DNA of 45,487 nt from positions 1 to 45,487 of the forward strand of contig DULR01000094.1 in assembly GCA_012840245.1 (NCBI GenBank), in the 5' to 3' direction. Shown here piece by piece: positions 4,601 through 28,387 of the stretch (its first letter is position 1; each line of letters opens with the position of its first letter). A program made the position numbers and the translations under genes. Source of the DNA: Clostridiaceae bacterium. Its GTDB lineage: Bacteria; Bacillota; Clostridia; DSM-8532. Below the pieces are notes generated by a model. It made no database searches, had not been told where the DNA came from, and saw nothing but the letters and a program-made list of their open reading frames with translations.

Positions 4601-5797
4601 ATGATAAAAAGCGGAGTTACGGCACCTGAGGGGTTCAGGGCATCAGGAGTGGCCTGCGGGCTTAAAAAGAACGGCAACCTGGATCTCGCCATGGTTGTAT
4701 CGGATAAAACCGCAGCAGCCGCAGGCATATTTACTGCCAATGTTGTAAAAGGTCATTCTCTTAAGTGGACCATGGAAAAAGTAAAAAGCGGAGCTGCAAG
4801 AGCAGTGGTCATCAACAGCGGCTGCGCCAATGCATGCCTGGGAGAGCGAGGCGATGCGGACGCTGCATCGATGGCTGCATATGCTTCCGGTTTTATCGGC
4901 TGCGAGCCTGATCTGGTATTGCTGGGCTCGACCGGTGTAATAGGCTTCCCTCTTGATATGAAAAAAATAAAAGCCGGCATCAGGAAGGCTTATGATTCTT
5001 TGTCTTATGAAGGAGGAAGCCTGGCCTCAAAGGCGATAATGACTACCGACACCTACCCGAAGGAAGCTGCCGGAACCTTCATGATCGGAGACAAGACAGT
5101 AACAATAGGTGGAATGGCCAAGGGCTCAGGTATGATCCATCCCAATATGGCGACCATGATTTCGGTGATCACGACCGATATCGCCATAAACCCGGAGCTT
5201 TTGAAAAAAGCCCTTAAGACCGCCGCTGACAGCTCCTTCAACAGGATCTCCGTCGACGGTGATACAAGTGTTTGTGACAAGGTCATTATCCTGGCGAACG
5301 GAATGGCCGGGAATACTGTTATAGATAAAGAGGGACCGGAATACGATGCATTCCTGTCGGTTTTGCTCGAAGTTTCGGAATCGCTCGCCAAAATGCTTGC
5401 CAAAGACGGCGAGGGGGCGACCAAGCTTGTTGAGATCCGTGTCAAAAATTGCAGCGACAGAGAATCCGCTCATCTTATCCTCAATGCGATTGCGAAATCA
5501 CCTTTGGTAAAAACAGCCATATTCGGTCAGGATGCCAATTGGGGCAGAATTTTCACTGCGGCAGGATATTCTGGTGCTAAATTCGATCCCGATAAAGTCG
5601 ATATTTTCATAGGAGATCTGTTGGTGTGCAGAAACGGCACCGGACTATGCTTTGATGAGGATAAAGCCGCTGAACTGCTGAAAAAGGATGAAGTAGTCAT
5701 AACCCTGGACTTCAAAGACGGCAGCATCGATGACAGAATATGGACATGCGACTTTTCCTATGATTATGTGAGGATAAACGGTTCATACAGGAGCTGA
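4601..5797 (+). CDS. argJ: Glutamate N-acetyltransferase / ornithine acetyltransferase ArgJ
   Basis: ArgJ recycles the acetyl group between N-acetylornithine and glutamate in arginine synthesis. Some ArgJ enzymes also use acetyl-CoA. The 398-residue length is normal. The self-cleavage site is visible in HPNMATM, where Thr185 would become the N-terminal nucleophile of the beta chain after cleavage of the Ala184-Thr185 bond. The start ATG 4601 follows a GGAGGG site. It is unusual in standing alone: no argB, argC, argD or argF is next to it, and its plus-strand neighbour is cheW, 70 bases downstream. Whether it is mono- or bifunctional cannot be decided from sequence alone. Confidence 0.95.
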   Translation: MIKSGVTAPEGFRASGVACGLKKNGNLDLAMVVSDKTAAAAGIFTANVVKGHSLKWTMEKVKSGAARAVVINSGCANACLGERGDADAASMAAYASGFIGCEPDLVLLGSTGVIGFPLDMKKIKAGIRKAYDSLSYEGGSLASKAIMTTDTYPKEAAGTFMIGDKTVTIGGMAKGSGMIHPNMATMISVITTDIAINPELLKKALKTAADSSFNRISVDGDTSVCDKVIILANGMAGNTVIDKEGPEYDAFLSVLLEVSESLAKMLAKDGEGATKLVEIRVKNCSDRESAHLILNAIAKSPLVKTAIFGQDANWGRIFTAAGYSGAKFDPDKVDIFIGDLLVCRNGTGLCFDEDKAAELLKKDEVVITLDFKDGSIDDRIWTCDFSYDYVRINGSYRS

Positions 5798-26142: not shown

Positions 26143-27747
26143 TTAGAAGCTGAGCTTGGATACCTTAATCACGCCTTCGACAGCACGAAGCTTTTCAAGA
26201 AGCTCGGGTGATACATCGCTGTCAACGCTTACGAAAGATACGGCTTTATTTGACCTTGTGCTCCTGCTCCACTGCATTGCTGCTATGTTGATGTTGTTCT
26301 GTCCGAGAAGTGTTCCGACCTTGCCTATGATACCCGGAACGTCAATATTCTGCAGCGCGATCACATGCTTGGTGGGTTCAAAGTCAAGAGCATAGCCAAA
26401 GAAATCCACGATGCGGATGGTATCCACTGCGAATACCGTTCCTGAAACCGATATGGCATTGCTCTTCCTGTAGAACTTAACGGTAATGAGATTCGTATAT
26501 TTCTCCAACTGGCTGGATTTGCTCTCAACAAGCTCGACCCCCATTTCGGAAAGCTTGAGCTGAGCGTTTACGTAATTTACCTCATCCTCGCTGACTACCG
26601 ACATGAAACCTTTTATAACAGCCAGTGTGATTGGCTTAGTGGGCTTGTCGACCAAATCTCCGCTGTAGGTTATCTCTATCTTTTCTACTCTTTCCTGCTC
26701 AGCCTGGTAGTAGATAGCTCCCAGCTTTTCCCCGAGGCTGATATAAGGCCTCAGTTCATTCAGATCGCCTGAGATGGGAGGCATATTGACTGCAGCTACC
26801 AGTTCACCGTTCAGAACGGCTTCTACGTTCTTGGCAACTCCCAGTGAACAGTTCAGGTTAGCTTCCTTGGTGGACGCTCCCAGATGGGGAGTAAAAATCA
26901 CCTGATCCAGATCAAGAAGCGGATTCCAGAAATCCTGTTCCTCTGGCGCTTTATTGAAATTGGGCTCTACTTCCAGCACATCGAGAGCCGCTCCGGCAAC
27001 ATGTCCGGAAACAATTGCTTCATAAAGCGCTTTTTCATCTATCATGCCACCGCGGGCAACATTGACGATGCGGACTCCTTTTTTGCATAATGCGAGCTCG
27101 CGTGCTCCTATGAGATTCTTGCTCTCAGGTGTTTTCGGTATATGTATGGTGATCAGATCAGAAACCTTCAGAAGATCATCAAGAGTCTCTGCTCTCTTGA
27201 TTCCCAAGCTTTGAACGCGTTCGTCGGTAACATATGGATCGTATCCCACAACCTTCATACCAACGCCCAGAAGCTTCTTTGCTACAACAGACCCGATTTT
27301 TCCAAGTCCGATTATGCCAGCTGTTTTGCCATCAAGCTCCTCTCCGATGAACTTGTTTCTTCTGAAATCCTTGTTCTTTGCTGCGTGATATGCCTGTGGC
27401 ACATTCCTGAATACTGCGAATATCAACGCTACGGTCAATTCTGCAGCAGCCATCGTATTGCCGTCTGGAGTATTTACAACTGTTATACCTCGTCTTGTGC
27501 ATTCCTGTACGTCGATATTGTCAACACCATTTCCGGCACGACCGGCAACCTTAAGATTCTTTGCGTTTGCCAGCACTTCGCCTTTTACTTTTGTTGCGCT
27601 TCTGACAATAATCGCATCATACTGCTCAATGATTTTTGCAAGCTCCTCAGGAGAAATACCGAATGGAGTATCAACTTCGAATCCCTTGCTTTTTAAATAT
27701 TCGATTCCGTTTGATGCCATTTTGTCTGTTACAATAATCTTTGCCAT
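26143..27747 (-). CDS. serA: D-3-phosphoglycerate dehydrogenase with ACT domain
   Basis: SerA oxidises 3-phosphoglycerate to 3-phosphohydroxypyruvate, the first step of serine and hence glycine synthesis. The protein has the NAD-binding GLGKIG motif (147-152). Catalytic-region segments include ITIHIPKT, VARGGMIDEKAL and FTPHLGAST. It also has the intervening domain and a C-terminal ACT domain (IDVPGIIGKVGTLLGQNNIN) of the long SerA type. I place the start at ATG 27747 (534 aa) with a GGAGG site 7 bases away. The open frame extends 8 residues further without support. It sits behind a tandem glycine riboswitch and terminator, so its transcription is probably set by glycine. Confidence 0.97.
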   Translation of the reverse strand: MAKIIVTDKMASNGIEYLKSKGFEVDTPFGISPEELAKIIEQYDAIIVRSATKVKGEVLANAKNLKVAGRAGNGVDNIDVQECTRRGITVVNTPDGNTMAAAELTVALIFAVFRNVPQAYHAAKNKDFRRNKFIGEELDGKTAGIIGLGKIGSVVAKKLLGVGMKVVGYDPYVTDERVQSLGIKRAETLDDLLKVSDLITIHIPKTPESKNLIGARELALCKKGVRIVNVARGGMIDEKALYEAIVSGHVAGAALDVLEVEPNFNKAPEEQDFWNPLLDLDQVIFTPHLGASTKEANLNCSLGVAKNVEAVLNGELVAAVNMPPISGDLNELRPYISLGEKLGAIYYQAEQERVEKIEITYSGDLVDKPTKPITLAVIKGFMSVVSEDEVNYVNAQLKLSEMGVELVESKSSQLEKYTNLITVKFYRKSNAISVSGTVFAVDTIRIVDFFGYALDFEPTKHVIALQNIDVPGIIGKVGTLLGQNNINIAAMQWSRSTRSNKAVSFVSVDSDVSPELLEKLRAVEGVIKVSKLSF

Positions 27748-27813
27748 TGTCCAACCTCCTATATAACCCATTCAGTCCGGCATGGTATGCTCGCCTTTAA
27801 GTTTTTATTTTGT

Positions 27814-27842
27814 AAAAAAAGTCAAACATTAAGGTTTGACTT
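27814..27842 (-). terminator. Riboswitch expression-platform terminator before serA
   Basis: On the minus strand AGTCAAAC and GTTTGACT form an 8-bp stem with a 6-base loop, directly followed by seven T. It lies between the second glycine aptamer and the serA ribosome binding site, 66 bases before the start codon. It is the natural output of the riboswitch. Confidence 0.88.
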
Positions 27843-27901
27843 CTCCGGAGCTAAAAGCAGGACAACGAAACTGTTATTTGTTCCTTTGTCCGTTCATTCT
27901 T

Positions 27902-28052
27902 ACTCTGTCCTTTTGCCTGAGAGTGTCATCCGTTATGGATTTGCCCCTTCGGCGCCTTATCAAGGTCTCTCCAGAGGATCGTCCGGCTTAGGTCTTTTTT
28001 ACCTGAGAGCTTTACTCCTTCGGTGTGCTTGAAAAGCCACTCTCCCTAAGCC
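27902..28052 (-). promoter_or_regulatory. Tandem glycine riboswitch (gcvT motif) controlling serA
   Basis: Read on the minus strand, two glycine aptamers are visible in a row. The first (about 28052-27984) contains GGGAGAGT, ACCGAAGGAGTAAA and CTCTCAGGTAAAAA. The second (about 27983-27902) contains CTGGAGAGACC, CGCCGAAGGGGCAAA and the near-consensus CTCTCAGGCAAAAGGAC (27923-27907), closed by CTCTG/CAGAG. The pair is joined by a short linker, as in cooperative tandem gcvT elements. A further GGACAA/TTGTCC pairing lies between the second aptamer and the terminator and may serve as the switching helix. Control of serA rather than the usual gcv operon or glycine transporter is less common. Whether glycine turns it on or off is not decided. 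Confidence 0.93.
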
Positions 28053-28083
28053 ATCATCCGGGCGATATTCAACTGTTAAAAAC

Positions 28084-28112
28084 ATGATAACTCTTTACTA
28101 TGCTAAAGTCAA
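28084..28112 (-). promoter_or_regulatory. Sigma-A promoter of the riboswitch-serA transcript
   Basis: TTGACT (28112-28107 on the minus strand) and TATCAT (28089-28084) are separated by exactly 17 bases, some 30 bases before the first aptamer. Confidence 0.85.
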
Positions 28113-28234: not shown

Positions 28235-28294
28235 ATAAAACTCAAAACACTTTCTGGTGCCTGTAGAGTGAGTCAACTGCCCGATGACCTAAAT

Positions 28295-28371
28295 GTCATT
28301 CTGAGGAGCAAAGCGACGAAGAATCTTTATATTCAGATCCTTCGATTCCGCTGCGCTTCGCTCAGGATGAC
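28295..28371. repeat. ATTCTGA-type inverted repeat, full copy
   Basis: The unit begins GTCATTCTGAGGAGC and ends GCTTCGCTCAGGATGAC, an imperfect inverted repeat of 77 bases with AAGCGACGAAGAATCT in the left arm. Repeats of this kind are widespread and multicopy in Clostridia and some other phyla. Two further relatives lie in this window (21021-21125 and 36041-36091). Confidence 0.8.
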
Positions 28372-28387
28372 ACGGGTTTTGCGCTGA

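Follow-up and report, generated by a model that had tools for sequence, protein, structure and literature searches.

A tandem glycine riboswitch upstream of serA is predicted to switch serine synthesis off across an order of Clostridia

What does a tandem glycine riboswitch do in front of serA, which encodes the first enzyme of serine synthesis, and does glycine switch that gene off or on? The question is raised by a 45,487-nucleotide contig of a Clostridiaceae bacterium (DULR01000094.1, analyzed at full length and here called the window), in which the original prediction placed two gcvT-type aptamers, a perfect terminator and a promoter with a 17-base spacer ahead of serA. A cmscan search of the entire window returned two matches only, both to the glycine riboswitch model RF00504 and both on the minus strand (Table 1). 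Each scores above the RF00504 gathering cut-off of 32, with E-values of 5e-9 and 2e-9 that exclude a chance match, and aptamer 2 reaches 68.2 bits at 27984–27895 when the whole genome is searched with RF00504. The two aptamers abut at 27984–27980 and are followed by one terminator and expression platform. On covariance-model evidence the two-aptamer element before serA is a glycine riboswitch, and its aptamers would be expected to bind glycine.

The remaining parts of the predicted leader were also recovered. The promoter has the 17-base spacing foreseen, and promoters scoring 9–12 of 12 precede 26 of the 27 leaders scored, a survey that leaves out L063, L082 and L085. Downstream, the terminator stem consists of nine pairs, AAGTCAAAC/GTTTGACTT (27842–27834 / 27827–27819), with a loop at 27833–27828, a run of seven T at 27820–27814 and a folding energy of −11.9 kcal/mol including flanks. 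A consensus terminator scan of the window did not list this terminator, probably because A-T pairs lengthen the stem into the T run; an intrinsic terminator lies between aptamers and gene in nearly all homologues. The gene is serA as proposed, with a likely ATG start at 27747, one base from the predicted 27748, behind the ribosome-binding site AGGAGG at 27760–27755. The idea that this genome lacks a SerC partner was rejected, as an orthodox SerC is encoded on contig C32 (TIGR01364, 524.7 bits); the two glycine riboswitches of the genome both lie on other contigs.

Table 1. Features of the serA leader and gene in the window
Feature	Position	Strand	Details
Sigma-70-type promoter	28084..28112	-	TTGACT-17-TATCAT; scores 10/12
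Glycine aptamer 1	27980..28057	-	RF00504, 55.9 bits, E 5.4e-9 (cmscan of window)
Glycine aptamer 2	27895..27984	-	RF00504, 57.8 bits at 27979-27895, E 1.8e-9 (cmscan of window)
5′ strand of aptamer-2 P1 and following GAG	27969..27976	-	CUCUGGAG; doubles as predicted antiterminator 5′ strand
3′ strand of aptamer-2 P1	27903..27907	-	CAGAG; RF00504 alignment
Platform spacer hairpin	27860..27891	-	GGACAAAGGAAC...GUUUCGUUGUCC
Predicted antiterminator 3′ strand	27838..27850	-	CUCCGGAG-AA-GUC (CUCCGGAG = 27850-27843)
Intrinsic terminator	27814..27842	-	AAGUCAAAC-CUUAAU-GUUUGACUU then U run
serA, 3-phosphoglycerate dehydrogenase	26143..27747	-	534 aa; TIGR01327, 610 bits

Comparison of homologous leaders together with folding models makes it likely that at high glycine this tandem riboswitch shuts serA down by ending transcription prematurely. 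In the proposed mechanism, aptamer-2 P1 would be weak without glycine, having five pairs, and its 5′ strand (CUCUGGAG in the window, GACCUCUG in most homologues) would join a strand that ends in the terminator 5′ arm (CUCCGGAG-AA-GUC in the window, CAGAGGUC in most homologues), forming an antiterminator that would let RNA polymerase continue into serA. With glycine bound, P1 would close with its own 3′ strand, CAGAG, and free the terminator arm, whereupon the terminator would fold and serA would be off. Both the sign of control in living cells and the kinetic race between the two folds are inferred.

The proposed antiterminator recurs among relatives. The recurring CAGAGGUC complements GACCUCUG, which comprises the aptamer-2 P1 5′ strand and linker, and it contains the GUC of the terminator arm; in most homologues CAGAG-GUC stands directly before and runs into the terminator 5′ arm. 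Terminators were located from the conserved GUCAAA arm, with L063 left out; this replaced automatic terminator picking, which chose spacer hairpins in many leaders. Across 36 leaders the pairing averages −11.7 kcal/mol, where dinucleotide-shuffled controls give −7.7 and the remaining sites −5.0, and in 25 of them it beats every other platform site tested for the P1 5′ strand. The mean weakens modestly, from −11.7 to −10.8, when strands are exchanged across species, and two-sided covariation is scarce because the P1 5′ strand is nearly invariant. The pairing is weak in L040, L041 and L065 and absent from five Thermoclostridium-type leaders (L043, L044, L046, L047 and L048), in which local hairpins adjoining the terminator arm may serve instead.

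These helices point to one sign of regulation. The antiterminator and P1 are mutually exclusive, and in most leaders the antiterminator also takes GUC from the terminator, whereas P1 and the terminator are compatible, and structures forced to contain P1 retain the terminator; a P1 stabilized by glycine should therefore favor termination, giving a predicted OFF switch. In the window, whose platform extends for about 60 bases after aptamer 2, the antiterminator duplex reaches −14.3 kcal/mol and ranks first among 111 background sites of that platform. It consists of eight pairs with 27976–27969, an internal loop whose terminator side carries AA, and three further pairs, GAC 27983–27981 with GUC 27840–27838. 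The eight-pair helix ends just before the nine-pair terminator stem, such that this antiterminator excludes P1 fully and overlaps the terminator by the three GAC:GUC pairs only.

To represent ligand binding in ensemble folding, we placed an energy bonus of assumed size on P1. In transcripts folded before the terminator 3′ arm is made, P1 lies below 0.1 and the antiterminator above 0.8 in 30 of 36 leaders, and in the window a bonus of 6 kcal/mol turns 0.99 antiterminator into 0.97 P1. For complete leaders, a 10 kcal/mol bonus raised the terminator probability in 17, lowered it in 1 (L047) and left it the same in 18. The full-length window leader gives a terminator probability of 1.00 with or without the bonus, and control would thus depend on a race during transcription. 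The mutually exclusive helices expected to tie the terminator to the second aptamer hold for most homologues and only partly for the window itself. Given the small overlap and the terminator value of 1.00, control there may be leaky or purely kinetic, and leakiness has to be reckoned with in this genome.

The same genome provides an internal comparison. On contig C50 (L096) it carries another tandem glycine riboswitch, placed ahead of gcvT-gcvH-gcvPA-gcvPB, where gcvH is a 126-aa open reading frame between gcvT and gcvPA assigned by position only. Both leaders combine tandem RF00504 aptamers with an intrinsic terminator, but in the gcv leader the P1 3′ strand, CAGGGU, forms the base of the terminator stem, which weakens from −17.1 to −9.3 kcal/mol when that strand is left out; under the ligand bonus the terminator base drops from 0.97 to 0.11. 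This sharing of the P1 3′ strand with the terminator makes the gcv leader a predicted ON switch, opposite in sign to serA. High glycine would then switch glycine breakdown on and serine synthesis from 3-phosphoglycerate off, a sensible form of reciprocal control since glycine cleavage and serine hydroxymethyltransferase convert glycine to serine. Taking two proposals jointly, we think it probable that the serA antiterminator strand duplicates the P1 3′ strand and vies with it for the P1 5′ strand, and that in this genome, and probably in the whole order, tandem glycine riboswitches of opposite sign form a reciprocal pair. Two switches of predicted opposite sign for one ligand within one genome offer a handy natural experiment on the wiring of a single aptamer type to ON or OFF control.

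Could glycine instead raise serA expression? On gcv operons, glycine riboswitches act as ON switches (PMC11477304), and the original prediction entertained a role for glycine as a one-carbon signal that prevents termination; L047, one leader of 36, loses terminator probability under the bonus. Yet a terminator built as an ON-type extension of P1, considered as a candidate, is not present in serA leaders: the P1 3′ strand lies 34–147 bases upstream of the terminator, hence at least 34 bases away and outside its stem, and the terminator persists when P1 is forced. The genome's own gcv leader contains exactly the ON-type overlap that the serA leader lacks. Activation by glycine is therefore improbable, and of the two directions originally proposed the comparison favors feedback, with almost nothing found for the other.

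A different reading takes the window terminator as nearly independent of the aptamers, the mark of a leaky or decaying switch that ends a fixed share of transcripts. The unchanging value of 1.00 in the full leader and the three-pair overlap would fit this, as would a C at 27977 that breaks a pair kept with U in the sister leader L034, whose antiterminator pairs two bases more, and the loss of the riboswitch from the same-genus locus L085, which keeps the promoter and a stub. Against it, both window aptamers retain high scores and the conserved core, the antiterminator dominates before the terminator is complete and is flipped by P1 stabilization, and an identical type of platform recurs in its near relatives L034 and L035; we consider such independence unlikely. 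It is most improbable that another sensor works alongside the aptamers here, in the way that a serine T box is combined with the glycine riboswitch reported upstream of serC-serA-serS (PMC9481103): scanned with Rfam at gathering threshold, neither the window nor the related serA loci gave a T box or any additional riboswitch. Glycine-induced termination remains our preferred account of the serA leader.

How widespread is this arrangement? The window's genome falls in the order of Thermoclostridium caenicola, a placement inferred from its nearest named relative, L047, and from its kinship to other genomes, and we surveyed 33 genomes of this order. Coordinate comparison put RF00504 immediately upstream of serA in 30 of the 32 serA genes found (one in each of 32 genomes). 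The two exceptions are G003 (the genome of L085), where the element is lost, and G016, whose serA is cut at a contig end. The aptamers are tandem in the serA leaders read; L052 has a single aptamer above threshold before serA (4843–4919), and its aptamer 2 looks truncated just before the ribosome site. At L085 (4481–5030) the riboswitch was lost by deletion, and the promoter and aptamer-1 stub run straight into the ribosome-binding site. In more distant Clostridia (L064–L067, L077, L081, L086 and L092, from Ruminiclostridium, Anaerobacterium and others) the element precedes a class V aminotransferase gene followed by serA. Two of these aminotransferases match BhcA/PhnW-type models below cut-off, and neither of the two tested (L064 3578–4980 and L066 3559–4953) reaches SerC models; the L064 and L066 enzymes differ from each other, at about 35% identity, and may act as phosphoserine or glyoxylate aminotransferases of non-orthologous origin. 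An exact-pattern census of the CAGAGGTC platform in 391 genomes of the class gave 5 hits only and was not used, because platform length and sequence vary and such a search misses most platforms.

Much of this system has precedent. Glycine riboswitches that turn transporter genes off or gcv operons on are well established (PMC11477304); the OFF-type examples cited there, on AGCS transporters of Vibrio cholerae and Streptococcus pyogenes, likewise lower expression with glycine, with a transporter rather than a biosynthetic gene as target. A close relative is the device before serC, serA and serS (PMC9481103), which like the serA leader has two full glycine aptamers before serine genes, is predicted to be OFF and follows the same metabolic logic of drawing serine from excess glycine. 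In contrast to that device, the serA leader has no T box, controls serA alone, occurs order-wide and has a platform derived by comparison. Glycine riboswitches have also been reported before serC in metagenomes (PMC2211319), and serC and serA belong to the glycine riboswitch regulons of a single Clostridium, described as rare (PMC3766115). The riboswitch class and pathway are the same, but what was rare in those reports is found at 30 of the 32 serA genes of one order and in the aminotransferase–serA arrangement of Ruminiclostridium-type genomes. The choice of gene, singled out as notable at the outset, is thus rarer than gcv without being new. Class, target pathway and predicted sign are all precedented, and the known riboswitch class is unchanged; what is new is the lineage-wide distribution and the comparative platform model. 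The comparison settles the expected direction of a glycine riboswitch on serine synthesis and shows that a pairing with serA, so far recorded as a rarity, is the norm within one order of Clostridia.

Other glycine riboswitches and a repeat family were seen along the way. In another Clostridia family, L008 (1501–2099) has a glycine riboswitch before an open reading frame that by eye resembles homoserine dehydrogenase, an unusual target, and in L007, L011 and L013 of that family glycine riboswitches precede a gene whose translation, also judged by eye, resembles a sodium:alanine/glycine symporter. Upstream of the serA promoter, at 28280–28375 of the window, lies a palindromic intergenic repeat (GTCATYCTGAGCGAAGC...) with 128 genome matches at one mismatch or fewer, against 0 for the reversed control. 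Similar-looking copies occur inside the serA platforms of L036 and L082, where they stretch the platform to about 130–150 bases.
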